NCBI GenBank assembly: GCA_002794775.1
Contig: NBAY01000089.1
Coordinates: 62,001-126,000 of the forward strand
Origin: Porodaedalea pini
Taxonomy: Eukaryota > Basidiomycota > Agaricomycetes > Hymenochaetales > Hymenochaetaceae
Reading direction: 5' to 3'
Length of the DNA stretch: 64,000 bases
Positions 8,416-39,163 of this stretch are shown in pieces (positions within the stretch are counted from its first letter, which is position 1; each line of letters opens with the position of its first letter). The notes beneath the pieces were generated by a model, which did not search any database, was not told the DNA's origin, and saw only the letters and a list, made by a program, of their open reading frames with translations. A program made the translations under genes and the position numbers.

Positions 8416-8986
8416 GATATCTCTCCTGCTAAATTTTAGGGTACCTGTACGCCATTAAAGTGACTCTGAGTGCCCCTGATAGCACCCAGAGCTTCCTGGC
8501 ATCAAATTCCAACTTTCCTGGCCAAGGGAACTAACTGGATAAGGGTACATGACTTCTATGCATGTCTTCCATTATCCTACCGATATTTTTGATGTTTTGG
8601 TACCTGGAAGGCTGACACACTCAAGACAGTGTGAAACAGCATCTAGAATACATCTGAAGCACTTCTGAGACGGTTGTACATGTCTATCACACTTAGCTGA
8701 ATTCTTTCAGGGTGCATAATTTGTTTGATGTAAACTTGCTCCATTTCTGCCAATGTTTCGATGTTTTGGACACTTTGACACATAAAAGTCTTCAAAATGA
8801 CTCAGATAGTATATAGATGACTCGTGAAAGATATGTGAGACAATACAGCACGCTTGGATCGCTTGTAAGAACTGTTTGATGGGTGCAGAAACTTTATGCT
8901 GAAGGTCTGGCCCTCCTCTGCTGATCTTTTCTGTTGTTGGAAACCCCGGAGCCTAGGCAATGTTGGAAGCGATGGAAAGGGTCCAT
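8400..8986. repeat. Left part of ~170-bp monomer array (monomer types 2, 3, 4)
   Basis: The landmark motif CTRCCG or variants occurs at 8577, 8747 and 8918, i.e. every 170-171 bp. The following bases mark three monomer types that match, in order, types 2, 3 and 4 of the array right of element B. The last monomer ends in gagcctaggcaatgttgg...gtccat, where element B begins. AT-rich, non-coding. Confidence 0.8.
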
Positions 8987-9795
8987 TGTAGCGATTAACC
9001 ATCGCCTACGCGCCGGCCGAGTCTCTCCCCCTTCACTTACACTACTCCTTTGACTCCCTTTACCGGCCGCCGAACATCACCATTTGTTCATTCATAATCG
9101 GTGGCCGACTCTTTGTGATAATTCTGGGGATGCACACGGTTGGACAGACGGATACCATACGAGGTCGGTCAGCACATGGACGACCGACAGTCGTGGGCAC
9201 GGGTGGAAGGAATCGGATGGACAGGATGAGGACGTGGGATATGGCAGTGCAGTGGTGGTGGACGAGAGGGCAGGTTGGACACTACAACATCACTCCGCGA
9301 CGATCGGCTGCGTGATGTGCGCAGACCGATCGCCGACTCACTCTCACATTTGTTCTCACAGACTCGGCCGAGTCTTGCACCGCTTTCCCCGCACTAGTTT
9401 AGTATAAAACCACAGTAGTTCAAGCAGTAAAAAAGGAGAAGTTCCCCCTCTACCGATAGACAGCATCAATCTATTACATGCAGCTCTATGCACTACTCGC
9501 CCGACTCTCACTCTGAAAACAATAGTCACCGACTCTAAATCTCAAAACTCCCGACTCTCCGCCAAAGTCGCACTCCGAAAGTCCTTGGCCGCTGCCCTAA
9601 AGTGCCGATCCTACCCAACCGAGTCTTGGTCCAACCGGAATCCCGCAGGTATCCGTATCGCCGAGTCTTCAGATCTCGAACCGGCTCTACTTAGGTTGTC
9701 CCTCTCGATATACCGAGTCACCGCAGTCCCCCTTGGGTTGAACACGAGCGTAAGCCCGGATCACCCTTCGGAATAGAAGAGTCTGCACCCCTACA
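8987..9795 (+). repeat. Element B 5' LTR
   Basis: Starts TGTAGCGATTAACC and ends CACCCCTACA; 809 bp, the same length as the 3' copy. TATA-like tataaaac occurs at about 9401-9408, followed by the CT-rich strand (ccccctctaccg). Confidence 0.93.
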
Positions 9796-9797
9796 AC

Positions 9798-9812
9798 TGG
9801 AGCCCACCGCGA
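9798..9812 (+). other. Element B primer binding site
   Basis: TGGAGCCCACCGCGA lies 2 nt after the LTR, the usual position and TGG start of a tRNA 3'-end primer site. Element C has nearly the same site (47804-47788, minus strand). I cannot say which tRNA. Confidence 0.75.
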
Positions 9813-9822
9813 GGGGGACAAG

Positions 9823-12800
9823 GTGCCTCGCCTAAGTACCAGGTCGACGTCTGAAGCTCCTCGGCGCTCTACGCGCATACAGGCAAAGGCCCAGGAAGAA
9901 CCGAGCAAACCACCACCACCACCCAGAGGACGAGGCCGAGGAAGACCAAGAGGACACCCACCGGCTTCAGCCGCTCCTCGTAGTTTTCACGCCCCCAGAG
10001 AAGCATCGTCGTCACCATTTCGCCGCTCCAGAATCACAGACCCAGAAACCACACACCAAAACAACGACCAACAGCAGCCACCGTCCTTGGCTGATCCAGA
10101 ACCGACACAAGAACGAGGACAACCAGTCGAACCTAGAAGGATCCTACCTGATCTCATCGAAACCCCGATATCACTCCGTATCCCAGGAAGCTTTATAACC
10201 GGCAATAGGTCTCACCTCAGCATCAGCAGCACACCGCTCAATCAACAAACACAGCGAACAAGCGCGACCCCTGAAAGTGAGGAACAGAACCCGGGATTCG
10301 AAGGATACAGGAGTCCAACCAGAGAACGGAGTCGATCCAGATCCGAGGAAGTAGTCAGAAGGTTGGTATCACCAGGGCCACGAGAATCGGCAACACCATA
10401 TCGAAACCAGTCCCTAGGATCGTTGTCACCCCGAAGACCAGCGTCACCACTCAATTGGAGCAGACAAGTCAGCAGAAGAAGGCCCAACGAGCCTCTAATT
10501 CAAACAGAAGGACCAGTAGAAGGACCAACGGAACGGAACCTCGAGCCTGAGAATCCTACCCCCGACGAAGAAGAACGATCGGCCCCAGCCTCACTACAAA
10601 ACCAGTCTGACACATCGGAGGAGGACATATCACCACCAGCGCCACCACCAACTCCGGAAGGAGCGGTACCTGTCCCAAGAACGAGAATCGTAGATCCAAC
10701 ACCGGAACCTCGGTCCCCGACTCCGGAACAGCCGAGATCGACACCACCCCCGACTCCACGAGCACTTACACCGGCACCGCCGACTCCCCGTACCGTGGCG
10801 CCTCCAATAATCAGACTAGTCATGGCCAATTCTACTACACAAGGGTCGAGTCAAGTACCGGGACAAACTCCAGCAACGGGACCAGCAACACAAGCCGTAC
10901 CAAACACCATGAACCCACTTCCAGATCTGGCCGAATCTAGGAATTTACTGATCACAGGACCAAACCCACCGGTGCCAGGAGCAACAATGCCGAGTAGACA
11001 CGACAAACGAGCTCCCACTATGAACGCCGATGTAGAACCAGAAGGGATCCCACGATTCTTCGAAGAAGTCAACATTCTCGGATCAAACGCAGGTATCACC
11101 GAGCTACAGAAAATCAACTGGGCACGTTACTATGCACCGGTATGCGAGGAACTACTATGGTCAACTCTCCCACAGGCACGGCAAAACGATTTCGCATCAT
11201 TCAAAACAGCCGCGCTAAGCTTCTACCCGGCGGCAACGATAAGATATACGTACGGGGATCTAATCAACTTCATCGCCGAGAATTCCAACAAGGTTCTCAT
11301 GAGTACGGCTGCCCTGGGAGAGTACCATCGAAGCTTCATGCGGATTACGTCATACCTGGTTCAAGAAGGAGTCATTTCGGAACTAGATCAAAAACGGTTC
11401 TATCGAGAAGGTCTAAATCGACTCACCAATCAGCATCTCGAACAACAGCTTCGGTTGGTTGACTTTCGACACCCAGCTGGCGTCCCCTGGGACATCCAAG
11501 TACTGTACAACGAACTCGACCGACTCATAGCAGGAGGAGTCCTGATGACGGGACCAGGAGCACAGCCAGGATACGCAGTACCGCAGTACGGAACGTTCGG
11601 GGCACCCGCAGCGGCCCCCTATTTTACTCATCAACACGCCACCGCAGCACCTGACTCGTACACACCATCGCCCATCGTCAAACGGGAGGACTCAGAGCTA
11701 AGTCTGATCGCACGTATGGTATCAGACTTACAGGCAGAAATAAGGGACCTCCGGAGCGAACGAAAGGAAGATTACCGAAGGCGAGACTATGAGGATCGGT
11801 ACGCTCGGGATCGGCAGTATGCCCCGAACGAACCAAGGGACTATCAACGACCCGATGAGTACGGACGACCACGCGAGGAATACAGAGGACCACCGAGAGC
11901 CCCTCCGCCGGCCAGAAACTTTCAGGCAAGAAGTACAGAACCCCGAACGTGCGCAATGTGCCACAGCACCGGACACCTATTCAGGAACTGTACAATCAGG
12001 GACACATTGCTGAACCGGCGATTGTTGGCCCTGGATGCACAAGGATTCGTGGTAATGCCAGGAGGAATGCGACTACCACTGGGACCTCAAGGCTCCTCCT
12101 TACTGGACCGAATGAACCTATACTACCGAGATCACCCCAACGAAGTCCCCCAGGGCACAGCTCTTCCAGTAGATATGACGGCACTACGAGATCCGCCACC
12201 GCACCAAACAGCAAATCTGTTCGATGCATACTACCCCGCCGTATCAGGACCAAGCATCCACACACCGACCTGGCCATATGAGGAGGCAGCCCATATCGAA
12301 GAGATCGAGGATGAACATGCTGCAGAAGGGAAGAAGGTACGGTTTGACGATACAAGCAACCCGCATGGCCAGCAGAGATGATCGGCAAGATTGGCCAAAA
12401 TAGGAAAAGCCGACCCTCCGTCATCCGGACGAACGACAAAACCAGCGAAGGAGCAGGGAGGACACGAACCAGCAATGAACTCGGGCGTATCACCAACTGG
12501 AACAGTCAAGGGAAAGGAGAAGGAACCAGCAGAAACTAGGACCACAGAAGAATCGGCACCTGACCATCTGCCACCAGACGAACCGACACCAATCCAGGTA
12601 GCACCACCACGGGAAAGGACGGAATCAAAGCCTGGACCACCCAAACCAACGATAGACATCCAGAAGCCTCAGTTCAAGTACAGCACACCGGCCAATGACC
12701 CCGCAACGGTCGATACAGTATTTCACCGATTCTTGGACGCTACGATGTCGATATCAGGACGAGAACTATTGGCAACATCCCCCGAAGTCAGACGAAAGTG

Positions 12801-13365
12801 CAAGGACATGATGACCACGAAACGAAGTCCTATAAGCCACGACGAGGAAGGCACGGCAATGTACTCAGCAGGACCCAGGCCAGGATCGCCAGACGTACCA
12901 CCGGAAATGGAACCAATTGCACCAGCAAGCGTCCCGATCCGAGTTGTCGACGTATGGCTGGACGGAAAGATCAAGGTAGAAGGACTACTCGACACCGGAG
13001 CTTCGTTTATCGGACTATCTCGGGACGTATGGAAGCACTTAGGATCGCCGACTCTAAATAACGAGCGAATCACTATCGAAACAGCGGACGCATCTAGGAC
13101 CCAATCGCTCGGACTAATACCACGACTCAGAATAGGACTCGGAGGATTCTCGGTACTCATACAGGCCCAAGTCATACACCCAGCACCATTCGATATCCTG
13201 CTTGGCCGACCGTTCCTCGCGCATTGCAAGGCTCGACTGATGGACGTAGACATCGACGACCAAGTACTGGAATTAGTCCATCCGGTAACGGACGAAGATA
13301 TTACGGTACCCACTCGAGAACGCATGCGACGAAAGCAACCAGCCAAGGAAAGCGAGGATTTTTGA
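9823..13365 (+). pseudogene. gag: Element B gag-protease frame with one internal TGA
   Basis: One reading frame from 9823 to the TGA at 13363-13365, broken only by TGA at 12379-12381. The N-terminal ~350 residues are Pro/Ser/Arg-rich and disordered-looking. The capsid-like region follows (about 11040-11560: PRFFEEVNIL, INWARYYAPVCEELLWSTL). A charged RD/RY-rich stretch is next, then a CCHC zinc knuckle (CAMCHSTGHLFRNC) at about 11950-11991. After the internal stop comes retropepsin with LLDTGASFIGL near 12990-13020 and ILLGRPFL near 13200. The internal stop could be a mutated CGA or a natural gag/protease boundary; CGA decay fits the rest of the element. The frame ends in a T run (13359-13363) where pol is in the -1 frame. 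Confidence 0.85.
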
Positions 13366-16300
13366 GAGTCGATGAATCGGTACAAGATCGACGAGACGAA
13401 CCAGAAGCACAAACAGGCTACACCGCAGATACCCTAGACCAAACCACAGTCCAGATCTCCTTCGACAGGCAATCCATCGAAATCACCGTCTCCGAAGGGA
13501 AGGGCGCAAAATCGAAACAAAATACGGAAAACAGCAAAACCCGAACAAACGATGCAAACGGACTATTCTCGATTAATCACCCATACAATAACGAATCCCT
13601 AATACCGTGAACTAATCAAAATCGTCACACTAGTCAACCATTCTACAAGTACAAGAAAGTCGCAGATTGCATAAAACCGGTTCCAACGACACTCCCAGAG
13701 GAATACCAAATCACCAGGACAGCGCACCCCGACCCTCTGAAGGACCTTCCAGAACTACCGACCCATCCTCCACCGTTCTCACCTGGGAAACGACTCACCC
13801 AGGAACGATACAACGAAATGGACATAGACCCGGCCAGGTTCTTACTACCTGAAGAAAAGGAACTCGCATGGTGGGTTATCAGTACACAGGAGATGGCATT
13901 TGCATGGGACAAAACGGAGAAAGGTGCCCTCGACTACGATTACTTCGCACCGGTCCTTATCCCAACCATCGAACACATTCCATGGGTACTGAAAAACATA
14001 CCTATCCCGCCCGGAATATTCGACAAGGTCGTGGCGATCATCAAAGACAAAATCATGTCCGGCGTATACGAACCATCAAACTCATCGTACCGATCAAGAT
14101 GGTTCTGTGTAGTGAAGAAGGACGGAAAGTCGCTGAGGATAGTCCACGATCGTCAACCGTTGAACGCAATCACAATACGCGACCCATCAGTACCATACCC
14201 AACAGAACATATCGCCGAGGCTTTTGGTGGCCGATCCTGTTACACAACCTTGGACCTATTTGTGGCGTTCGACCAAAGGAAACTCGCCATACGAAGTAGG
14301 GACATAACAACATTCCAGACACCATTGGGAGCATTCTGGCTCACATCAATTCCCATGGGATATACGAATTCCCAGCAAATCATGCACGCCGACATTACGT
14401 TCATTTTGAAGGACGAGATCCCGGACGTAGCGTTCCCATACATCGACGATGTACCCATAAAAGGACCTCCCACGCGATATGAACTACCAGACGGATCGTA
14501 CGAAACCATTCCACAAAATCCTGGTATTCGTCGATTCATATGGGAACACCTAAACGATGTCAACAGAGTCCTCCAAAGGCTCAAAGTAGTTGGAGCGACT
14601 CTATCAGGGAAAAAATTGGTACTTGCCACACCCGAAGCTGTAATAGTTGGCCACACCTGTAACTACTCAGGACGGGTCCCAGACGAAGCGCGAGTCCAAA
14701 AGATCATCGACTGGCCTCCCTGCGAAGACGTAACCGACGTTCGATCATTCCTCGGGACCACAGGAGTTCTCAGGCACTTCATCAATGACTTTGCCCGGAT
14801 GGCGTACGACCTGAACCGACTCACCGGCAAGGACGTTACCTTCTCATTCGGAAAACTCGAACAGCGATCGATGGAACAACTCAAGAAGGCGATCGCCGAG
14901 TCTGGGGCCATCAGGCCAATCGACTACAAATGCGGAAGACCGGTCCACCTTTGCGTAGACTCGTCAATTCGAGGATATGGAGCGATTCTGTTACAGATCG
15001 GGGAAAATGGAGAACGATTCCCAGCCCGTTTCATGTCTGCCACATGGAATGAGAGAGAACAGAACTACTCACAGCCAAAAGTAGAACTGTTCGGCCTCAT
15101 GAGGGCTCTCCATGACGCATGAATCTACCTGATAGGACTGGACCACTTTTACATTGAAGTCAATGCCAAGTACATTAAAGGCATGATCAACAACCCCGAC
15201 ATCCAGCCAAATGCTACAATCAACTGGTGGATCGCTGGAATTCTATTGTTCTACTTCACAATTATCCATATCCCAGGCGCCCGGCACACAGGCCCGGATG
15301 GACTCAGTCGACGAAAACGGGCAGACACGGACCCTCCAGATGACAAAGACTACGAAGAATGGATCGACAACCAGTACGCTTTCATATTCATAGCATACAC
15401 TGGAGACATTCCGTCTACCGATGACCCTCCCACCATTCCCCGAACATCTGCAGCAGAAGCAACCGACCAAGAGATGATACAGATCAAGGAATTCCTCAAC
15501 GACCCAAAGAAGCCAGAAAACATGACGGATAATGAATTCCGACACTTCGTAACAAAGGCAACCCGGTTCTTCGTTGCAGACGGACAACTCTGGAGGAAAC
15601 AATACTCAGGACCACACCAACTCGTACTCACACCCGATCGCTGATTCTCAGTCATGAAGTCAGCACACGACGATCAGGGACACAAAGGATTCTTCTCAGT
15701 ACAACTACGAATCCACGACCGATTTTGGTGGCCTATGATGAACTCAGACATACATTGGTTCCTGAAGATGTGCCACGTGTGCCAGACTCGGCAATTCACG
15801 CACGTACGAATCCCACCGAGCGTCCCAACACCAGCACCGCTATTCGCCAGGGTACACATAGACGTAATGCTTATGCCCAAATCGGGGGGATTCAGGTATA
15901 TCGTCCAAGCAAGAGACTCACTCACAGGCTACCCGGAGTTCAAACCATTGCGCGCCGACAACTCGAGATCGATCGCCAACTTCATTTTTCAAGATATCAT
16001 ATGTCGATGGGGTTACGTCCACGAGATCGTATCAGACAATGGTCCATCATTTGACGGTGAAGTAATCAGGATGTTGGCAAGATACGGAGTACACAATATC
16101 CGAATCTCCCCCTACAACTCGAGAGCGAACGGAATCGTAGAACGACGTCACCGGGACCTTAGGGAAACATTGATGAAACTTGCTGGGAACGACGAAGCTC
16201 GATGGTCACAACACGCATACCACGCAATATGGGCCGAGAGGATCACGATTCAGAAAGCAATGGGATACTCGCCATATTACATGGTCCACGGAGTCCAGCT

Positions 16301-16877
16301 GATCCTTCCATTCGATTTGGCTGAACAAATGTGCATGTCACCAGTATACTCAGCCAAGGTATCACAAGCAGAACTACTTGCGGCAAGGGCAAGAGCACTC
16401 CAGCGTCGACCAGAAGACTTGAAATGCGTACACTCGGCAGTCATGCGGGCTCGCTTCAAATCAATCCAACAATTCGAAAAACACTACCAAAACACGATCC
16501 GAGACTACGACTTTGGCCCCAGAGCCCTGGTGCTGGTTCGAAACTCACGAATCGACACGGAACTAAGCCGGAAAGCCAAACCCAAATATCTTGGACCTAT
16601 GGTAGTTGTTCGCCGAACAACCGGAGGATCGTACATTCTCGCAGAACTCACAGGCGCAGTCTCGGCATTACGATATGCAGCTTTCAGAGTCATTCCGTAC
16701 CACCCCCGAGCAAACATAACAACTCCAGTCACCCAGATAGTGGACCAGACCGACTCAGAACTCGACGAACTTGCCAACAAACATTCAAAAATCGAAGGGG
16801 AGGAGCGCGGTGCCGAGGATCAGCCACCAACAACAGAAATCCTCGACACCGACTCTGGAACCGAATCCGAATCATGA
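13224..16877 (+). pseudogene. pol: Element B pol (RT, RNase H, integrase), three in-frame TGA
   Basis: All in one frame, -1 relative to protease and overlapping it. The frame is cut only by TGA at 13608-13610, 15120-15122 and 15642-15644, each fitting a lost CGA arginine. RT: CVVKKDGKSLRIVHDRQPLN, LDLFVAFDQ and the polymerase box YIDD (about 14440). RNase H: LCVDSSIRGYGAIL, EVNAKYIKGMINNPD. Integrase: zinc finger H..H..CHVCQTRQ (15660-15800), first Asp in HIDVMLMP, second in SDNGPSFDG, Glu in NGIVERRHRDL. There is no chromodomain; the C terminus is acidic and ends at 16875-16877. This is a non-chromodomain gypsy lineage, the same as element C. Its stop lies 212 bp from the convergent stop of the antisense gene. 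Confidence 0.88.
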
Positions 16878-17088
16878 TACCCTTTATTCCCCCTATTATT
16901 CGTACTCGTTCTGATTCATTTTACACACTAAAACCCCTACTCTCAATCTTAGAAACCGCGAGATCCACGAAAACAGTACTTTACCAAGCCTTAAAGGAAA
17001 AGCCGAGTCTTGTACTCCCATCATAAAGCACAGTGTAACGCGGTACCAACCATAGACTAAATTCCCTTAATAAATAACAAAAACTATT

Positions 17089-19291
17089 CTACTTCCTCCC
17101 TTTCCCTTTTCCCTTCCTTTTCTTCTCCTTTTCCTCTTTCTCCTCTTGTTCCTGAACAGTCCGATAATTAATGAATGAAGTTTTGTCAAGGAACGGCGAA
17201 GGCGGCCTCCAGGCCTCCACCTCCTCGTGTTCGCCGAGACGATGGGTCAGTTCCTCAACGCGAGCCTCATATGCCTCCATACGACGGCTAACGGCAGCCT
17301 GGCGTTCGCGAATTGACACGCACGACTCGACGACATTCCGAGACAACGCCCCGACCAGGACGTCGACGGAAGCTGCATCCGAGTAGTCGGGCACATCGCC
17401 AAACTGCCAGACTGCGCCGCCAATACCGATCGGGTCCGCCATGGAAAGCGCGAGAGGAGCGAGTTGGGTACCACCACGCTGCCCACGGAACCGATCGAAG
17501 ACGCAGCGCGCCTTATTCCACAAGCAGCAGGTGCACCGCCGACTCTTGGGGACACCGTCGCACGACGCGCCCGCGACAATACATGTGTCGCAGGCGAGGG
17601 CAAACTGAACCGTCCGCCCCAAGTGTACCCCGCCTCCAAGCAAATCCGGATCCGGTCCATCGGAAACGACCTCCTCATTCCTCGCATCTCTCGCCAAAGA
17701 CGCACCCGCAGCGCGTGGAACCTTAGACGGACCAGGACGAGAAGGGCCCTCGTCGCCGCTGGATTCAACCAAAACCGGCTTTCGCTTGGTACCGGGCTTC
17801 GTAGGAGGGACGTTGTTGGTCGTCGCCTCTGAGCGCGCTTGCGAACCACGAACCTACGCGCAAGACAGTCAGCCAAGAAAAGCCAGACCTAACAAGAAAC
17901 TGCACTCACCGGAGCCACAACACGCATAGCCTTCGTGGATGAGGTGCTTCCGCCGACTAAGGAAGGATTGGCCTTTACAGATCCGGCCAGCTCAGCAAGG
18001 AAAGGAGAGGGGGAAGGTCTATATGGGGGTGCAGCGGGCCCACCAGTACCTCGACGAGACACGGCACTCGCATCCGAACCAGCGTGAGGCAACGACGCGG
18101 CAGAGACGACTCCCCCGCTTTCCGCACCCGAACGCGCGAGGACAGGACGAGGGCGAGGCTGACGCATACGTGATCCACGACGAGGGGGAGACGGAACCGA
18201 CTGGGTAGGCACGGCAGGGGTCGGCTTCTGCAACAAATCAGCAAAACAATACAGAGCCGGCAACAAACTAGGTACTCACCCGACGTAGATCCTGCAGGAG
18301 AGGCCCAACCATACGGTAGAGCCGATCCCGGAGTGCGTCGTCGGTGTCGGTAGGATACAGCGTGCGCAACGAATCGCGCACGCCCCTCATTTTCGCCGCG
18401 TGCTCCTCCAGCCTTCGATCCTCCTCGGCGTCCTCGCGCGCCGTACGCTCGGCCTCTTCTCGCGCCTGTTCTGCAGCCTGCCGTGTACGCTCGGCCCACT
18501 CTCGCGCCTCTTGCGCAGCCTGCCTGGCACGCTCGGCGTCCTCACGCTCCTGACGCTCTACCCTCTCCTTGGCCTCAGCGGCAGCACGCGCACGCTCGGC
18601 AGCGACGAGCTCGCGCTTACGCTTGCGCTCAGCCACCTTATCCTCCTCCTCGGCAATAAGAGTCCGGAGACGCTCGGGCAGCGCCTCCTCGGTCGCGTTC
18701 TCCATGGCTTTGTCAGCCTCTGTCCTGAATACGTCCAGAAGGACGTCGATCGTCGTAAAAAGGCGGTGGGTGGCCTTCGCACGCTCGGGAATGCCATCCC
18801 ATGCAGTAGAAAGGGAGTGCTAGAAAAATTGTCAGAAAAAGAAATCAAGGAAACAAAACAAACGAACGACGTACCCAGGTAGCCCGCACATACGCTAGCG
18901 CCTCCTCGCGAACCTCTTCACTCGACTTCTCGAGATCATCCAGCGCCGAGTTGAAATCTTCCATACGTGACGAGACGGGATCGCGCGGAACGAGACTCGG
19001 CAGACTAGACTCGGCGGGAGGGACACCGACTTCGCCGGTGCGTTCACCACCCCTGTCCACTTCTCCGCCCAGCGAAGGCGACGGTAACGACAAGGGACGC
19101 GGGAGATCCACACCAACGAGCGGACCTCCCACGTCATGGCTGCCGTCGTCAGGCTCCTGCGAAAGCCCAGGGGTTGCTGGCGCGTGATTGTCGGCCCCCA
19201 GCTTCCACTGTGGCGGTGTTGACGCTCGCCCCCCATCCTTGGGAGACGCGGAGGGCCACGGGACGGTTTCAGGAGTCAAAGCATTGTCCAT
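17089..19291 (-). CDS. Antisense spliced gene inside element B: Zn2Cys6 protein, 679 aa
   Basis: Four exons on the strand opposite gag-pol: 19291-18875, 18819-18280, 18227-17910, 17853-17089. Introns are 55, 52 and 56 bp, each GT-AG (donors GTACGT, GTGAGT, GTGAGT), all phase 0, and the joined frame has no stop. The ATG at 19291 starts MDNALTP. Exon 1 is low-complexity, ending in an acidic helix. Exon 2 has a long Glu/Arg/Ala coiled coil. Exon 3 is Pro/Arg/Ser-rich. Exon 4 carries C-x2-C-x6-C-x8-C-x2-C-x6-C (residues ~513-542; 17592-17503), the exact Gal4-type Zn2Cys6 spacing, then a second helix and a KGKGKGRK tail. The cluster is internal, not N-terminal as usual. A DNA-binding regulator or nucleic-acid-binding cofactor of the element is inferred. 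Element C has a counterpart at 38081-39163. Confidence 0.8.
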
Positions 19292-20066
19292 TGAAAGGTA
19301 TTGCAAGACGGAGGAGGTGGTAGTAAAAAGCAGAAAAGACACGTTCCGAAATTTTCGACGATCTCTGCCAACAGAAATCACACCCCCGCGTTACCGGACC
19401 GGAACAGGCGCCGTGATCGCACTCAAGAAGCACAACGCGTGACCCGGCTAGCTCAAGATCACCGAAGCGCCCAAAACGGTTCGCAACGATCACACACTTC
19501 AAAAGCCAATCATGCGCAGATCCAGACTACACCAAATACAGCACAAACCCGCCAATCATCCACAACGGACCCAGGCACACACCAAACACCAGCTCTCGAC
19601 AACATACAAGTCCCCACCAAGGAGAGACCCACAAAGTACTCGAAACACACAGACGCCCAGCACCAGCCAACACCAAAAGAAAACAACGACGCCAAGCCAG
19701 GACCACCAAAACACAACCGGCAATACAGGAATACAGACCGGTAACGAAACACACAAAATACGAAACAACGGACAACAAAACACAAAAATCTGCCGATCGA
19801 CCGGCCGCCGACCATGGGAAAAGGACACTATCGCTGTCATGAAGCTCCTACTGAAGGACCCAATTGAAGCATGCGAACGAATCGCCCGAAACACGCAACG
19901 AATGCGAACCCCGCCGATTGACGGCATGACCAATACAGAGAGGTCCTCCCGACACAGACACAAACGGCCCAGACAAGGTAACCATCCTTAAAAAAAAAAA
20001 AAAAAAGACACACACCCACAGAAAAAGCCGAAAAGGTTCGAAAGATGACAATCGACCCTGCATACG
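19292..20066. other. Intergenic segment between divergent accessory genes of element B
   Basis: Separates the start of the antisense gene (19291) from the sense frame at 20067, so it should hold both promoters. A-rich on the plus strand, with a 16-17 bp A tract at about 19990-20006. No clear TATA box. An open stretch at 19512-19991 has biased, repeat-like composition and no motif; I do not call it a gene. Confidence 0.5.
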
Positions 20067-20945
20067 ATGGAAAGCATTAACATCACCCCGCCGCACGCAA
20101 TCGTTCTCAAGGGGATGGCACGCTGCATGCCAAACCCGACTCCCAGCGATCTCCTACTAGCCAACCCTCGCCCAATTGGCGTCTCGCAGATAGTCGTATT
20201 CGACCCGGCGACAATCTCATTCGCCAAGTTCGCGGCCGAGTTACTGTTCGCCTTCGATAAACTCACGCCCACAGACCCGACTCTGGTATATGTGGCCTAT
20301 ACATTCTGCATGCCCGAAATACAAGAACAACTCGCGCAATCACCCGCACTTGCTGGAGGATCATGGGCGCAATTTTGCACCGCAGTCGCTGTAGCCAGCC
20401 CGGACTACGAAGGCCTCACACAACTCGCGTACGAAGAGGTATACCGCACGGTTTTCAGACGAGTCGCGAACAGGAAGGCTAGCTCATATGAGGCGACCCT
20501 GACTCTCTCCCGATTCAACGCTGCAGCAACAGTTTCATACGTCCAGCCAGCGTACCTCAGTCAACTGTACGAAGCCCGGGAATCGCTGACAGTCGTGGAA
20601 ACCGAGCAGGCCGATTTCGCAGCAATGCTCGAAGATGCCGAGCGAGAGTGCACCGCGCGCGAAGGACAACAATCAGCACTTCAGTGAAAGAGCAACACCA
20701 TGGTGCGCCTTGCCGAAGCCGGGAGGGAGCAGGCCATCCAGGCCCACCACCTACTCTCACAACTAGTCGGTCAACTGAACGAGCTGCACGTCACACCGAT
20801 CAACCTGGGAGAACACCTGAACGTGATTGGGTCCTGGAACGACTTCAACGCGATGTTCACAGCCAAGTATGGAACGATCGCACACGAAGGATCAACCGGG
20901 ACGGACGGACAGACAAAAGCGGAATACCCGGTACATTTCTCCTGA
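20067..20945 (+). pseudogene. Element B sense accessory frame 1, 292 codons with one TGA
   Basis: ATG at 20067 in good context (A at -3, G at +4). One frame to the stop at 20943-20945, broken only by TGA at 20685-20687; the frame resumes at once (KSNTMVRLAEAG). The predicted protein has a globular-looking first half (VVFDPATISFAKFAAELLFAF, given here as positions ~55-75) and an alpha-helical, Gln/Glu-rich second half typical of a coiled coil (AIQAHHLLSQLVGQLNEL). No known domain recognised. The TGA fits the CGA-to-TGA decay seen in gag and pol. Placement before the 3' LTR, on the coding strand of the element, marks it as a lineage-specific accessory gene. Function unknown. Confidence 0.55.
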
Positions 20946-21141
20946 AACTCCCCGGAGTCACTCGCCGCATGTTACACCAAGGCAAAATAGAGTACCCCTC
21001 CATCTCATTAATAACTAGAACCCCGTTTCACGTAGCAATAAACACCGCTATTCTCCGTATTGCCCGTTTTACGCCTTCTCCGCCCAAGAAATAATTTTTT
21101 TTTCACACCGAACATTGCACTAACAAATAACCCCGAGCCTC

Positions 21142-21148
21142 TATAAAA
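21142..21148 (+). promoter_or_regulatory. TATA box of accessory gene 2
   Basis: TATAAAA, followed by a CT-rich stretch (ccccctttcgtttccg) and an ATG ~100 bp downstream at 21248. This is an internal promoter, independent of the LTR. Confidence 0.6.
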
Positions 21149-21247
21149 TCCCCCTTTCGTTTCCGTTCACTCCCGAACACTCATTCTACAATACGCCCCT
21201 CCTTCAAATAATCCACCTTTTTTTTCAATACCTACCCCTCACCGACC

Positions 21248-21799
21248 ATGCGCTCAGACCGAACCAGCACCGAGTCTTTCTATGACAACCGGATTCTGTG
21301 CCCGGACGACATACGTGGGGTTCACAACTGGGCAATATCGTTCACTCTCGCTGTCGCACGCCATCACTCGCGTCAGGCCACTCTCGAGGACGTCCTACGC
21401 CACTCCGGACCTCACCAGCGCTTCTGGCGCTCGATCGCCGAGCCTGGCATGAAGGTGCACGAGTTCCTCCTACGCCTGTACATGGCAATCCACGTTCAGT
21501 ACCGACCCCGACCGACCTTGATCAATAACCACACCAAACACATCATAAATCAAGGACTGGAACTCCCGGTCAATCAGCGTCTACGTTCGGCGGTGACACA
21601 CGACCTCATCCGGATTGCGATCGTCCCGTGGCACCCGGACCTGCAGACGAGCATACACCATCCGGCTCCGTCAGTCCAACTCGAGAACCTACGCGAAACG
21701 GTCGCACAACAGATAGCGCAGATCACGAAACTCCAGGGCGCAATCTCAGCATTGATCGGTGAACCTTCAACCTCTTCTTCTTCTTCTTCGCACCATTAA
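21248..21799 (+). CDS. Element B sense accessory gene 2, 183 aa, unknown
   Basis: ATG in strong context (gaccATGcg) ~100 bp after a TATA box, uninterrupted to TAA at 21797-21799. The N-terminal ~150 residues look folded (HNWAISFTLAVARHH, FLLRLYMAIHVQYRP). They are followed by a short predicted coiled coil (LRETVAQQIAQITKLQG) and a run of serines ending in HH. No family recognised; no zinc motif, signal peptide or membrane segment. Like the product of 20067-20945 it has a globular part followed by a C-terminal coiled coil, so the two may form a complex; that is a guess. It is the last gene before the polypurine tract and 3' LTR. Confidence 0.6.
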   Translation: MRSDRTSTESFYDNRILCPDDIRGVHNWAISFTLAVARHHSRQATLEDVLRHSGPHQRFWRSIAEPGMKVHEFLLRLYMAIHVQYRPRPTLINNHTKHIINQGLELPVNQRLRSAVTHDLIRIAIVPWHPDLQTSIHHPAPSVQLENLRETVAQQIAQITKLQGAISALIGEPSTSSSSSSHH

Positions 21800-21901
21800 G
21801 TACCACAGAATGCACCGAACCTCGCCCATTAAAATTTTTCTTTAATCTCTAACTCAACCACTTCTTATACACCGCAAACATTTTTTTGGCCCCCTGGGAG
21901 A

Positions 21902-22710
21902 TGTAGCGATTAACCATCGCCTACGCGCCGGCCGAGTCTCTCCCCCTTCACTTACACTACTCCTTTGACTCCCTTTACCGGCCGCCGAACATCACCATTT
22001 GTTCATTCATAATCGGTGGCCGACTCTTTGTGATAATTCTGGGGATGCACACGGTTGGACGGACGGATACCATACGAGGTCGGTCAGCACATGGACGACC
22101 GACGGTCGTGGGCACGGGTGGAAGGAATCGGATGGACAGGACGAGGACGTGGGATATGGCAGTGCAGTGGTGGTGGACAAGAGGGCAGGTTGGACACTAC
22201 AACATCACTCCGCGACGATCGGCTGCGTGATGTGCGCAGACCGATCGCCGACTCACTCTCACATTTGTTCTCACAGACTCGGCCGAGTCTTGCACCGCTT
22301 TCCCCGCACTAGTTTAGTATAAAACCACAGTAGTTCAAGCAGTAAAAAAGGAGAAGTTCCCCCTCTACCGATAGACAGCATCAATCTATTACATGCAGCT
22401 TTACGCACTACTCGCCCGACTCTCACTCTGAAAACAATAGTCACCAACTCTAAATCTCAAAACTCCCGACTCTCCGCCAAAGTCGCACTCTGAAAGTCCT
22501 CGGCCGCTGCCCTAAAGTGCCGATCCTACCCAACCGAGTCTTGGTCCAACCGGAATCCCGCAGGTATCCGTATCGCCGAGTCTTCAGATCTCAAACCGGC
22601 TCTACTTAGGTTGTCCCTCTCGATATACCGAGTCACCGCAGTCCCCCTTGGGTTGAACACGAGCGTAAGCCCGGATCACCCTTCGGAATAGAAGAGTCTG
22701 CACCCCTACA
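21902..22710 (+). repeat. Element B 3' LTR
   Basis: 809 bp, nearly identical to 8987-9795, preceded by a short purine stretch (ctgggaga) and followed by the CCAT duplication at 22711-22714. Confidence 0.93.
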
Positions 22711-24700
22711 CCATACATCATCTAAAACATTTTGGAGATACTGTGAAGGGTTTGGGACGCTTCTGTGAATTACTCCATCCAGTTCCTTTCCTTCTGTAGT
22801 AAACCTGACACCCCCTGCCGCTTTTTTGCACTAAATTATTCTCTTATGTCTGTGGACCCTCTAAATGACTCGGAGTTCTTTATAAGAACTATTGACATAC
22901 AAATGGAGCGCATACACACAGCTTGGACACTTAAATGGATTTTATGTGGTGTGAATTGGGTTTTTGAGTGCAGATCTATCTCCCTACCGATATTTTCCAA
23001 TTTTCGGGCATCCAGCAGGCTGATACACTGAATATAGTGTCAGAAAGTATTCCATTGTGTCCCTGAATAGTTTCTGAGACGCTTTTGTGCTTCAATGTCG
23101 CTTATCTCAATTGTTTTGGAGTGAGTCACTATTTTGAGTGCAGATCTTCCCTCCCTGCCGAGTTTTTATGTTTTAGAACATTTGGAGTCACAAAAGTCTT
23201 CGAAATGACTAAGATAGTCTATAGGTGACTCGTAAAAGATATGTGAGACAATACAGCACGCTTGGATCGCTTGTAGGAATTATTTGATGGGTGTAAAATG
23301 TTTATGCTGAAGATCTGTCCTCCTCCTGCCGAGGTTTTCTGTTTTTGGAAACCCCGGAGCCTAGGCAATGTTGGAAGCGATTGAAAGGGTCCATAATGCA
23401 TCTAAAACATTTTTGAGATACCCTGAATGGTTTGGGACGCTTCTGTGAATTATTCCATCCAGTTCCTTTCCTTCTGTAGTATACCTGTCACCCCCTGTCG
23501 CTTTTTTGCATTAAATTATTCTCTCACTTCTGCGTACCTTCTAAATCATTCAGGGTACCTTATAGGTACTATTAAGACATATCTGAAACGCATATGTCTA
23601 GCTTAGACACTTGTTTGAATTTTAAGTGATGTGATCTTGAGTTTTGAGTGCAGATCTATCTCCCTACCGATATTTTCCGATTTTCGGGCATCCAGCAGGC
23701 TGATACACTGAATATAGTGTCAGACAGTATTCCATTGTGTCCCTGAATAGTTTCTGAGACGCTTTTGTGCTTCAATGTCGCTTATCTCAATTGTTTTGGA
23801 GTGAGTCACTATGTTGAGTGCAGATCTCCCCCTCCCTGCCGAGTTTTTATGTTTTAGAACATTTGGAGTCACAAAAGTCTTCAGCATAACTCATATAGTT
23901 GATTGATGACTCCTGAAATGTATATGAGACAATAAGACATGCTTGGATCGCTTGAAGGAGTTCTTTGATAGGTGTAAAATGTTTATGCTAAAGATCTGCC
24001 CTCCTCCTGCCGAGGTTTTCTGTTGTTGGAAACCCCGGAGTCTATGCACTTTTTAAAGCAAACAAAAGGTCCAGAATGCTTCTGAAACATTCATGAGATA
24101 ATGTGAATGGTTTGGGACGCTTCTGTGAATTATTCCATCCAGTTCCTTTCCTTCTGTGGGATATCTGTCACCCCCTGCCGCTTTTTGCACTAAATTATTC
24201 TCTTATGTCTGTGGACCCTCTAAATGACTCGGAGTTCTTTATAAGAACTATTGACATACAAATGGAGCGCATACACACAGCTTGGACACTTAAATGGATT
24301 TTATGTGGTGTGAATTGGGTTTTTGAGTGCAGATCTATCTCCCTACCGATATTTTCCAATTTTCGGGCATCCAGCAGGCTGATGCACTGATTATAGTCTC
24401 AGACAGTGTCCATTGTGTCCCTGAATAGTTTATGAGACGCTTGTGTGCTTCAATGTCGCTTATCTCAATTGTTTTGGAGTGAGTCACTATTTTGAGTGCA
24501 GATCTCCCCCTCCCTGCCGAGTCTTTTGTGTTTTAGAACATTTGGAGCCACAAAAGTCTTCAACATGACTCAGATAGTTGATGGATGACTCCTGAAACAT
24601 ATATGAGACAATAAAACACTCTTGGATCGCTTAATTAATTAGTGGACTGTTGGACCATATCTGTAATTTGAATCTGTCCACCTCTCCTGGCGCTTTTTTG
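22711..24700. repeat. ~170-bp monomer array in 680-bp higher-order units (right part)
   Basis: The landmark CTRCCG (variants CTGTCG, CTGGCG) occurs at 22815, 22984, 23156, 23326, 23495, 23664, 23836, 24007, 24175, 24343, 24514 and ~24687, spaced 168-173 bp. Bases after it cycle in fixed order: cttttttgca (type 1), atattttcc (2), agttttta (3), aggttttctg (4). Units 22711-23390 and 23390-24070 are two full four-monomer repeats, and a third follows in part. Removing element B and one CCAT makes the left and right phases continuous (169 bp). Non-coding. Confidence 0.88.
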
Positions 24701-32620: not shown

Positions 32621-35600
32621 CATAGTGGTGAGGATTAATGGAGAATCAGCTCAAGCTCTTGTCGATTTGGGATCACTTGCTGATTTTATGTCCACTAAGT
32701 TTGCAGATCAAATCAGAGTAAGAAAAAGTTTGCTTGCCAAACCGCTGCCTGTCCAACTCGCTGTACAAGGTTCAAGATCAATGGTTAACTATTGTACAGA
32801 CACTTGAATTGAATAAGGAGAAGTTAATTCCATTTGTCATTTTGATATCATGAACTTGGATAACTATGATATCATTCTAGGAACACCGTTTTTGTATCAG
32901 CACAAAGTTTTACTTGGATTTAACGATTTGAGGCTATGGATCGAGAGCTCGAAACCTTTACCATTGAAAGGTGAGCAGGTATCTTACCTTTTGTCTCGTT
33001 TAGTTGATACTTATGAGTCTGAAATCGAAAGGTGCCATGTTCATATAAAGGAATATGCTCAAGATTTGTTCAAGGATGCTTCTCAAACTTCATTACCACC
33101 ACTTCGTGCTATCAACCATACTATACCTTTGATAGATGAGAAGAAACAATATAAATGTTGACATTCAAATTGCCCAGACCCCCTGAGAGAACAATGGGGA
33201 ATTAAGAGATGTGATTATATTAATTCTGGCAGGTGGCGTGTGGTTACAGGATTGAATGCAATGCCTATGCTATTGCTTCAAAAACCTCGAAAAATTAATA
33301 CCGACCCCATACGACTTTGAACAGTAATTGACCTAAGAGAAAGGAATGCCAACACCAGAAAAATGTCCTCAGTTCTCCCTGATATCAAAAGCGTTCTTCA
33401 TAGGGTTGCTTCTAAAAAATACAAATCTCTTACTGATGGGAAAGATGCATATGAACAGATCAGAGTCGTACCTGAGCATGTGAATAGAACCATATTCAAT
33501 ACTCCAGATGGAACAATGGTTAGTGAAGTTATGCAATTGGGAGACTGTAACAGCGGCACTACTTACCAAGCTTTAATGAACCACATTTTCCAGCCATACT
33601 TGGGAGATTGGATGGATATTTACCTAGACGGCTTGGTAATTCATTCAGATACCATTGAAGAACATATCAAACACTTGAAATTGGTTATTGATATAATTCA
33701 AAAGGAGCAGTTCTATTTGAGTGAGCACAAAATGCAACTTTTCCAAAAAGAACTAAAGATTCTTGGGCATATAGTCGATGATGATGGAATCTGAATGGAT
33801 CCAGTGAAAGTAGATTCAATCAGGAAATGGAAAGTACCCACCAATAGAGATCTCCTTTGTGGATTCCTGGGAGCAGTTGGTTATTTAGCTCCAAGCATTC
33901 TGCAGATTCAAATTCCCATGGGAGTGCTAACTAAATTAACTGGTGATACAATGCCATTTTGATGGACTTTTACAGAACAAAGAGCCTTCGATCAGATTGT
34001 TAATTTAGTTTCTGAATTTCAAAATCATCACAGAATCATTTTGAAGTATGGAAAGAACACTCCTCCAATTAATATAGTTACTGATGTGTCGGCTTCAGGA
34101 ATTGGAGGCATTGTTAGCCAAGGAGAAAATTGGAAAACAGCAGAAGTTGCTGCATTCTATTCAGCCATATTAAATTCTGCACAGCAGAATTATGCAGTAC
34201 ATGATGTAGAATTTCTGGCTGGAGTAGAAACAATGCTATGAAACAGGAATTTACTTCAAGGAATGCATTTCTGATGGTATACAGACCACAGAGCGTTAGA
34301 GCATTTACTCAGACAACTGAACCTCAGTGGACAGCAAGCTAGATGGTTAGAAAAAAATATCTGACTTTGATTTCAAAATTATCTACATTTCTGGAACAAG
34401 CAACATCCTAGCTGATGCATTATCATGCATATATTCAGGTGATTTACCAGGAACCATCCGTGCACGCTCAGAATACACCCTAGAAATTGATGAAGACGAC
34501 ATCTCTCAATTTTCAAGGTTAAATGCTATTATTTCTGAACCTTTATTAACCAGCCCATACACTACAAATCCTGCTGTAGTTTCACAGCCAGACCAAAGTT
34601 TGCAGACACTCAATCAAAAAACTGAGGTCGAGCCGTTTCACAAACGGATTAAGAAAGTGAAATTAATTGTTAAGTCCCCAGAGAGTAAATCTGGTACTGA
34701 AAGTAAGCCGGAGGGCAGGACTACCCAATTAATGGTAACTGACACGCAGCACACGAGACAAGGCATGTCACCAATTAGATCCCGACTTCCCCATCGCTTA
34801 ACTGGGGAAAGATCCGGGAACCAAGTCCCCGATGCCGATCAGCATACAGTCAACTCGCCTCAAAGGGCCACTGAAGAAATTGAGCAAACAACTAACACTA
34901 AGTTGACTGATATAATTGCACAAGGTAATCCCGATCTACATTTCCCTGCCTGTCTGAAAGGAAAATATGTACAGGACAATTTTTACAAGCAAATTTTAGA
35001 AAACCCAACTCATTACAAGAATTTCTGCATCAAAAACAAACTAGTATTTCGATGGGAGGGCAGGAACTATATACTTTGCATACCAAAAGTGTTAATTACA
35101 GCCATTTTCATAAGTCCTGTGACACGTGCATGTCACGTGAAATGAGCCGCGGCTGAGCCAAAATGTCAAAAAATTAGAATGAATGCCTATTTTCTCTGTG
35201 AATTCTGCACAGTACCTGCTCATTAAGTACTCAAAAAAAAAGGCACGGTTCTCAGGAGCAGAAATATTTAAAATAGGGAGCAATACATTGACTGTGTAGG
35301 CAGGTGGAGATCAAACAAGTGCAGCTGGTCTGTTCTCTCACACATTTCCACTGAGATTCAAAAATTATGGCTCCCCTACATCTATCTATAAAATTCTTTC
35401 CTGTGTCTGTAAATTAAGTATATGACTATACCAACATCTCCTGCAAGTTTGAAGCCAATCCATTCAGTATTCATGGTGCAGCAGCAAGATTTGTGTTCTA
35501 CTTCAAGCTCTTTCCACCCTCCTTTTCTCACAACAGGTCTTGCAGAGTAGAACACAAATCTTGCTGCTGCACCATGAATACTGAATGGATTGGCTTCAAA

Positions 35601-37605: not shown

Positions 37606-38085
37606 TGATAATACTGAGTTCCGGTTGTTAGTAAAGGGGAATCAGATGATTGAGTTCGAGGGAGATGTGTCTAGTGGGTCAATACCCTCATTCCGGTCGA
37701 GTTCTGTGGGTTCTGGATCGAAGGATTCGAGTTGCGTGCATTCTGGTGTGTCAGGGGCAACGGAATCGGCAGAGCACGCTAGGAGGGAAGTGTTCAAAGT
37801 GTAGTGCCAGCGGAGCGCTTGAGATGTGTGGGGGATTGTCAGTGGCTGTGTTGGAAGACGTGGAGATGCACTAGCACTAGTGCGACTTCTCAGAGCGGGA
37901 TTGTCCTCAGAATGGATGGCTGGTCCCTGTGCTCAACAGGACGTGGTCTGGAATACCAGAGAGGGGGGGCGAGGTACAGAACTTAAATCAGAAGATAAGA
38001 GATGAGAGGGGAGTGAGGTTGAGGTAACGAGAACGAAGCGGAACAAGGCAAAGACAGAACAGACAGAACGACCGCAACAAGTGCA
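37606..38085 (-). repeat. LTR-like fragment, inverted relative of the 42113-43229 LTR
   Basis: Matches 43229 downward to ~42745 on the minus strand, beginning at exactly the same base (TGATAATACTGA) although the upstream flanks differ (element F pol here, element C pol there). That fixes a repeat end. It is probably the remnant of element C's 3' LTR, read on the minus strand, bordering element F. Similarity fades near 38085. Confidence 0.6.
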
Positions 38086-39163
38086 ACAGGCGAGATCTGG
38101 TCCTGATGAAACTGATCTACCGGTTGAGGATGATCAGAGTGATGCATCTTGTACTTCTTCGATGTGGGCGTGGGCAGAAAAGGAGTTGGCGACTCATGCT
38201 GCTGCCCACGCCCATTGTCGTCCGGTTTTTCCTCCTCGAGCACCAAGTGAAGAGTTGACTCGGATGGTCGTTGATGAGAATCCTGCTAGTCCTCCACCTG
38301 GTTTTTGTGGGGAGTCAGATTATGAGGGAAACAGCTCAGACTCAACTGTTTGTGGCTTGCGGGGTCGATCCATGAGTGCTGCTTTGGGCAAGTACAGCAA
38401 CAGCAGCAGCAACAAGGGTCAGGCCGACAATGGTGAAGATGATGAGGATGAAGATGAGGACATTGACAATGAAGGAAGCAACAATGAAGGAAGCAACGGC
38501 GAGGGAAGTGAGGAGGAGGAGGATGAGGAAGACGAGGACAACAGCAGCAGCAACAACATCAATTCTGCTGGTTGTAATCTGTGCCGGATGCGAGGCATAG
38601 AGTGCACTGGGACTCCTGGGAAGGTGTGCACGAATTGTCAGAAGCTCTGGATTAGGTGCAAGCTGTCGACACATGGCTGGGCAATGAACTGCGTCATGCA
38701 TGAGCGGGTTGCGCAGGCTCTGCCTCCTCAGTCGCGGTCAGCTGCTGGGTCGTCTTCGAGACCTGCTACAAGCGCGGCACCAAGTACTCCAGTGAGGCTA
38801 CCTCCTGGAGTGTTGACAAGGGCTCCTGCAAGAGCATCGACGAGGCCACCAACAGGTCCAGTGACAGCTGGGCCTAGACGTCTGGCTCGTCCTAGTGTTG
38901 GGGTCGGCTCATTTGATGACGGGTTTGAGGAGCTGTCCATTCACTCGTTGGAGGCAGAATTGGATCAGGAGTTGTCTGTCCTGGGTCGGGACGCTTGCAT
39001 GCTCAAACGCACCGCTTCAGAGCTGGAGTGGCAGGCGGTGTTGCTGCAAGATAGAGCAGCCGCCATGTGGTCTAACGTCATGTCGATGCAGCGGGCTCGG
39101 GAGTCTAGACGGGATCAGGACAAAGGCTCGGGGAAAGGAAAGGGGAAGGGGAAAGCGAGGTAG
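38081..39163 (+). CDS. Antisense Zn2Cys6 frame of element C, up to 360 codons
   Basis: Open to TAG at 39161-39163 on the strand opposite element C pol; its stop faces the pol stop (39525) across ~360 bp. The true start is uncertain: the first in-frame ATG is at 38162, and an acceptor-like CAG near 38087 suggests an upstream exon. An acidic Glu/Asp/Ser/Asn region (~38400-38560) precedes C-x2-C-x6-C-x7-C-x2-C-x6-C (38573-38659), which is exact Zn2Cys6 spacing. Then come a Pro/Ala/Ser/Thr linker, a helical stretch (LEAELDQELSVLGRDACM) and a tail KGSGKGKGKGKAR. The same order and the Gly-Lys tail occur in the last exon of the element B antisense gene, although sequence is otherwise diverged. No internal stop despite the ruined gag-pol next to it. 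Confidence 0.7.
   Translation: MQQARSGPDETDLPVEDDQSDASCTSSMWAWAEKELATHAAAHAHCRPVFPPRAPSEELTRMVVDENPASPPPGFCGESDYEGNSSDSTVCGLRGRSMSAALGKYSNSSSNKGQADNGEDDEDEDEDIDNEGSNNEGSNGEGSEEEEDEEDEDNSSSNNINSAGCNLCRMRGIECTGTPGKVCTNCQKLWIRCKLSTHGWAMNCVMHERVAQALPPQSRSAAGSSSRPATSAAPSTPVRLPPGVLTRAPARASTRPPTGPVTAGPRRLARPSVGVGSFDDGFEELSIHSLEAELDQELSVLGRDACMLKRTASELEWQAVLLQDRAAAMWSNVMSMQRARESRRDQDKGSGKGKGKGKAR

Follow-up and report, generated by a model that had tools for sequence, protein, structure and literature searches.

Can a retrotransposon carry, on the strand opposite its own genes, a spliced gene for a zinc cluster protein, and what might such a product do? This question is raised by a stretch of 64,000 nucleotides from the basidiomycete Porodaedalea pini (GenBank assembly GCA_002794775.1, contig NBAY01000089.1, positions 62,001 to 126,000), which is referred to here as the window. 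An original prediction, made from the letters of the window alone, had described a long terminal repeat (LTR) retrotransposon with a four-exon antisense gene for a Gal4-type zinc cluster protein. We found that the antisense frame is a true coding gene and not a product of chance. Antisense zinc-cluster genes are not peculiar to the window copy; they form at least five families in this genome.

The antisense gene and its host element

The host of the antisense gene is a Ty3/gypsy-type LTR retrotransposon at window 8987-22710. Its LTR pair gives the element TG...CA ends, a 4-bp CCAT target duplication is found on both sides, and the order within pol is protease, reverse transcriptase (RT), RNase H, and integrase. 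As predicted, the antisense gene sits between pol and the 3' LTR, on the strand opposite gag-pol. The four-exon model (19291-17089, minus strand) was reproduced exactly, with 679 codons plus a stop, no internal stops, and three GT-AG introns of 55, 52, and 56 nt, all in phase 0. The spacing C-x2-C-x6-C-x8-C-x2-C-x6-C was likewise recovered from residue 513 of the product, the N-terminal part of which is charged and of low complexity. This strict cysteine motif was present twice in the window, compared with no occurrence in 200 block-shuffled windows. The gene had also been said to stay open in a copy whose gag and pol carry TGA codons, and this was the case: the gag and pol stretches end in TGA at 12381, 15122, and 15644, and the reading frame of the element shifts between 13365 and 13611.

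Selection on the antisense frame

Exon 4 matched 71 places in the 53-Mb assembly. Thirty-six matches were nearly full length (73-100% identity), and 26 of these were stop-free, with stops in the other 10. By comparison, 3 of the 32 best RT rows were stop-free, the RT query being longer than exon 4. The best 30 of the 71 exon-4 loci were aligned. Among copies aligning throughout, identity to the window copy was 72-84% in the exons and 55-69% in introns 1 and 3; intron 2, where present, was 52-59% identical, except in two copies at 90%. Median pairwise dN/dS was 0.32, 0.40, 0.51, and 0.27 for exons 1 to 4, respectively, after dropping five rearranged copies for exons 1 and 2, two for exon 3, and none for exon 4. 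The comparison of dN/dS between copies had been proposed beforehand as a check, and the value for exon 4 indicates purifying selection in the antisense frame.

Many of the differences among copies L009-L038 resemble CpG-type transitions, and TGA codons are found in most RT copies; both point to deamination as a process that probably acts on repeats. Because of these transitions, a CpG-aware shuffling was used, in which the changes of each of 29 copies relative to the window copy were permuted among sites that matched in base and CpG status. For exon 4, nonsynonymous changes amounted to 0.64 of those expected (p<0.01 in 29/29 copies). In contrast, both wrong antisense frames and two of the three sense frames gave 1.11-1.20; the third sense frame, which has its third positions in common with the antisense frame, gave 0.71. 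Stops in exon 4 summed over copies numbered 14 against 96.8 expected, a count that includes changes common to several copies, and by site the depletion was not significant (1 vs 3.5 for singletons and 1 vs 3.3 for shared changes). Nonsynonymous changes counted by site were 0.77 (singletons) and 0.79 (shared) of expectation in exon 4, each with p below 1 in 2000. The corresponding values were 0.84 and 0.67 in the integrase, with four locally rearranged copies dropped, and 0.92-1.06 and 0.83-0.90 in exons 1-3.

Frameshift indels told a similar story. With gaps at the intron-2 junction set aside, we counted nine in seven copies for exon 1, seven in five for exon 2, and three in three for exon 3 (n=25), and none in exon 4 (n=30). 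The by-site ratios imply that the N-terminal half of the product is weakly constrained. The whole antisense gene was stop-free in only 6/25 copies. Purifying selection on the antisense frame is clear for exon 4 alone. All six cluster cysteines were kept in the 30 aligned copies; the neighboring Cys109 was Cys in seven.

Related antisense families

Besides the family of the window gene (F1), four further antisense families (F2-F5) were found in other elements, at the same place and in the same orientation. The RTs near them are approximately 53-78% identical to the window RT, and in alignment with exon 4 their antisense open reading frames (ORFs) show 19-33% identity. The five cluster cores align with invariant C1, C4, G8, C11, G13, C20, C23, and C30; the cysteine spacing varies by at most one residue per gap, and the families have little else in common. 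With short pieces dropped, 54 of the 71 hits were retained for F1 and F2. Forty-two lay antisense and downstream of an RT at a distance of 0.5-9 kb, which was 1.97-2.0 kb for 31 of them; nine had no RT within 12 kb in the list used, and three were otherwise placed. The same filter left 31 of 76 rows for F4 and F5, and 21 of these were antisense downstream of an RT (15 at 2.13-2.22 kb). In most copies, the ORF is conserved and lies opposite to gag-pol in the interval from pol to the 3' LTR, which is the arrangement of an antisense accessory ORF of the aORF-3R kind, with the 3' LTR located for the window element alone.

Candidate introns of F2, read by hand, are 60, 57, and 63 nt long and all in phase 0, and in both F1 and F2 a VR-x-TW peptide precedes intron 1. 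We were unable to locate the third intron of F3, and BLASTP of F1 exon 2 against the matching F2 ORF gave no match. The zinc motif was absent from five stretches fetched in the vicinity of other RT relatives (L043, L044, L055, L056, and L058); therefore, the trait is not universal, or lies outside these stretches, or the elements are disrupted.

The zinc cluster

The product is predicted to be a Zn2Cys6-like protein with a zinc-cluster fold. Zn_clus domains have the spacing C-x2-C-x6-C-x5..12-C-x2-C-x6..8-C, and the window gene and the aligned copies fall within it. The predicted cluster, a binuclear one with a short helix after each CxxC, fitted Zn2Cys6 domains at 1.2 Å over 33 residues, and all of its fold matches were sequence-specific DNA-binding domains of the Gal4/Lac9/Pho7 type. 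These domains share with the window gene the six cysteines, their spacing, and the predicted fold. They differ in two respects, and "Gal4-type" was accordingly right for the metal ligands and the predicted fold and needs qualification in these two respects. First, the profile search of the product against Zn_clus (PF00172), suggested with the original prediction, did not reach the curated Pfam cut-off: the F1, F2, F3, and F5 ORFs had no match at E<=1, and the F4 ORF scored 12.1 bits against a cut-off of 21. The genome itself holds 28 matches to the fungal Zn_clus family. Second, the residue three positions before cysteine 3, between cysteines 2 and 3, is an invariant Gly in 5/5 antisense families and 27/27 rows, whereas in eight host Zn_clus domains it is Lys in seven and Arg in one. 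In Gal4, the Lys/Arg before the third cysteine contacts DNA. By this mark, which was derived from the host domains compared, the antisense families stand apart. Any DNA contact would therefore be made through another surface or the basic tail and not by the standard Gal4 reading of CGG.

Protein-database searches with the zinc-cluster region and with family F5 gave no match. The same was true of a search with the whole product, in which the words came from the first 500 residues and so missed the cluster, and scoring covered the 7996 candidates with the most words in common. A sequence-profile search of the PDB returned one match (E 2.9), and the Pfam matches of the accessory ORFs were all under the cut-off.

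Introns among the copies

The original prediction held that the spliced gene passes intact through the genomic RNA, and the introns are indeed retained through transposition. Intron 1 is GT-AG in 24/25 copies aligned there, and intron 3 is GT-AG in 26/28 and GC-AG in 2/28. They persist because these stretches do not act as introns in the sense genomic RNA. Intron 2 occurs in 9 of the 28 judgeable copies and is missing from 19; its absence takes six exonic nucleotides as well and preserves the spliced frame. In a tree of exon 4 (26 copies, four of the 30 being omitted from the trees), all 15 copies lacking intron 2 form one clade. The integrase tree breaks this group up, and 7/23 splits are common to both trees. 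A single loss of intron 2 would be the simpler reading. We considered the loss as a trace of reverse-transcribed spliced antisense RNA, but a plain genomic deletion accounts equally well for a loss that includes six exonic nucleotides, and the loss is no proof of a spliced RNA intermediate.

Comparison with known antisense genes

According to PMC11963269, the region from pol to the 3' LTR of the plant element Retand holds conserved ORFs in antisense, as does that of the window element, and further antisense ORFs in plant elements of the Retand, Grande, and RIRE2 type are reviewed in PMC7264820. The Retand product carries a TRP28 domain, thought to bind DNA (PMC11963269, PMC7264820), and no zinc cluster, whereas the window element has two conserved sense ORFs and a four-exon antisense gene. 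Neither "zinc" nor "intron" appears in the main texts of these two papers. The Boty/BcGypsy1 element of Botrytis cinerea has an additional antisense gene, brtn (Zhao et al. 2011, cited in PMC7264820 and PMC8365987); it is also a fungal gypsy element with an antisense gene, a likeness taken from the title of that paper.

The HBZ gene of human T-cell leukemia virus type 1 (HTLV-1) lies antisense in the provirus and is described as encoding a bZIP (coiled-coil) regulator. HBZ is spliced. It encodes a bZIP and not a zinc cluster, and we claim no sequence kinship with it. HTLV antisense transcripts are described as starting in the 3' LTR; for the window gene, in contrast, a start in the internal spacer appears more likely. 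Among the literature matches listed, which comprised titles and the beginnings of abstracts and left subscription papers mostly outside, no LTR element with an antisense zinc-cluster gene was found. The layout is thus known in kind from Retand, brtn, and HBZ, and the zinc cluster, the four-exon structure, and the spread over several families look new.

Possible role of the product

Antisense accessory genes are known in plant gypsy elements, one Botrytis element, and deltaretroviruses. The explanation that we prefer, and to which we give about an even chance, is that the window gene is a true accessory gene, spliced from antisense RNA, whose zinc-cluster product acts in trans on the expression of its own element. 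It builds on the observed gene structure, the selection on exon 4, the metal ligands, and the position in several families, together with the predicted fold. As its sequence implies, the sense genomic RNA would carry the antisense gene with unspliced introns, leaving each new copy complete. Antisense transcription would yield the spliced mRNA and would start from the 775-bp spacer that lies between the gene and sense ORF3, a spacer whose divergent layout makes it a natural place and a candidate for a bidirectional promoter. The product, probably a dimeric accessory protein, may dimerize through its long helix and would act in the nucleus much as HBZ does for HTLV-1.

A more specific version of this explanation is tentative, and we hold it to be possible rather than probable. 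These elements may constitute a fungal Ty3/gypsy clade with a retrovirus-like accessory region, consisting of two sense ORFs and a divergent antisense gene of several exons, which would encode a dimeric regulator with a Zn2Cys6-like cluster and be expressed from a shared internal promoter. The regulator would have lost the CGG-reading residue and would recognize the element itself, as a fungal counterpart of HBZ in at least five families. If this is true, families that keep little beyond the metal ligands are to be expected, as a self-specific regulator would co-evolve with its own LTR. The recognizable fold, the multi-exon structure, and the dozens of copies in a 53-Mb genome make the question of element regulation directly testable. 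Such antisense genes could also readily be mistaken for host transcription factors in annotation.

The main rival, which we consider unlikely, accepts a real, selected gene and assigns it to the particle or to integration: a zinc-knuckle-like protein with a basic tail would bind genomic RNA or complementary DNA, or would tether the integration complex to chromatin. The invariant Gly where host domains have Lys/Arg, the Lys/Gly-rich tail, and the long helix are consistent with this role. However, every fold match of the cluster is a sequence-specific DNA-binding domain, and a spliced antisense mRNA would be an odd route to a structural part made in step with Gag. It is quite improbable that the antisense transcript itself is functional, through RNA interference or transcriptional interference with gag-pol, and that the frame is left over from a host gene that was captured. 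Roles of antisense RNA are discussed for plant elements in PMC7264820, and exons 1-3 are nearly unconstrained, but codon-level constraint, the lack of frameshifts, and six invariant cysteines in exon 4 argue otherwise, as does a cysteine spacing held so closely across five otherwise dissimilar families. Host takeover of some copies, with selection acting on single resident copies, also seems very improbable. Exon 4 changes unique to one copy included 49 nonsynonymous ones against 63.8 expected (ratio 0.77, compared with 0.84 for the integrase), which could reflect such selection; the tips are long, however, and selection before insertion may explain these changes, and the 42/54 hits antisense downstream of a recognizable RT and the stops in 10/36 long exon-4 matches speak against takeover. 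Finally, although these GC-rich stretches often contain long overlapping frames, a chance antisense frame opened by GC-rich codon bias is contradicted, to the point of being negligible, by the selection in the antisense frame, the invariant ligands, the motif-free shuffled windows, and the greater divergence of introns 1 and 3 than of the exons.

Neighboring features

Both sense ORFs beside the antisense gene are conserved (Table 1). ORF3 had 76 genome matches, with homologues beside F2 and F3. Copies were chosen from stop-free rows plus one from F2, and 13/15 fetched copies encode 292 aa, the others being L064 (283 aa) and L074 of family F2 (352 aa). The protein is predicted to be mostly helical and has no Pfam domain. 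ORF4 had 82 genome matches, including the counterpart in the F2 element at C7:390290.

Table 1. Features of the window element, its antisense gene, and the related families; positions refer to the window unless a locus is named.
Feature	Position	Strand	Remarks
5' LTR	8987..9795	+	809 bp, 98.76% identical to 21902-22710, 10 mismatches, gapless
gag-like open frame	9823..12381	+	852 aa, GTG start as listed, TGA end; without Pfam match
Protease stretch of pol	12391..13365	+	Pfam aspartyl protease PF13650, E 4.4e-9
RT and RNase H stretch	13818..15122	+	Pfam PF17919, PF17917, PF00078 (RVT_1 under its cut-off); TGA end
Integrase stretch	15654..16877	+	Pfam PF17921, E 2.6e-13
Antisense exon 4	17089..17853	-	Zn2Cys6-like cluster, long predicted helix, Lys/Gly-rich tail
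Six-cysteine cluster	17503..17592	-	product residues 513-542
Intron 3	17854..17909	-	56 nt, phase 0
Antisense exon 3	17910..18227	-	nonsynonymous observed/expected 0.87
Intron 2	18228..18279	-	52 nt, phase 0; variably present among copies
Antisense exon 2	18280..18819	-	charged, coiled-coil-like by eye; nonsynonymous observed/expected 0.87
Intron 1	18820..18874	-	55 nt, phase 0
Antisense exon 1	18875..19291	-	ATG at 19291; nonsynonymous observed/expected 0.77
Spacer	19292..20066		775 bp between divergent antisense gene and ORF3; candidate bidirectional promoter
Sense ORF3	20067..20687	+	206 codons in window copy, TGA end
Sense ORF4	21248..21799	+	183 aa
3' LTR	21902..22710	+	partner of 8987-9795
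Family F2	L041	antisense	376-aa ORF
Family F3	L042	antisense	single genome match
Family F4	38006..39160	+	385-aa ORF in a second gypsy-type element; element pol on minus strand, 44667-40119; 17 long copies including the window one
Family F5	L052-L054, L057, part of L045	antisense	ORFs up to 614 aa

The observed/expected ratio of CpG was 1.03-1.19 in the measured parts of the element, compared with 0.40 and 0.41 in two stretches outside it. Undepleted CpG within the element and depleted CpG outside would be consistent with a recent insertion amid old repeats that have mutated. A diverged tandem repeat of approximately 680 bp flanks the element on both sides, at window 22711-24526 and 8740-8986. 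Elsewhere in the window, at 35095-35952, there are near-perfect long inverted repeats, one of 269 nt (99%, 43 nt apart) and one of 146 nt (99%).
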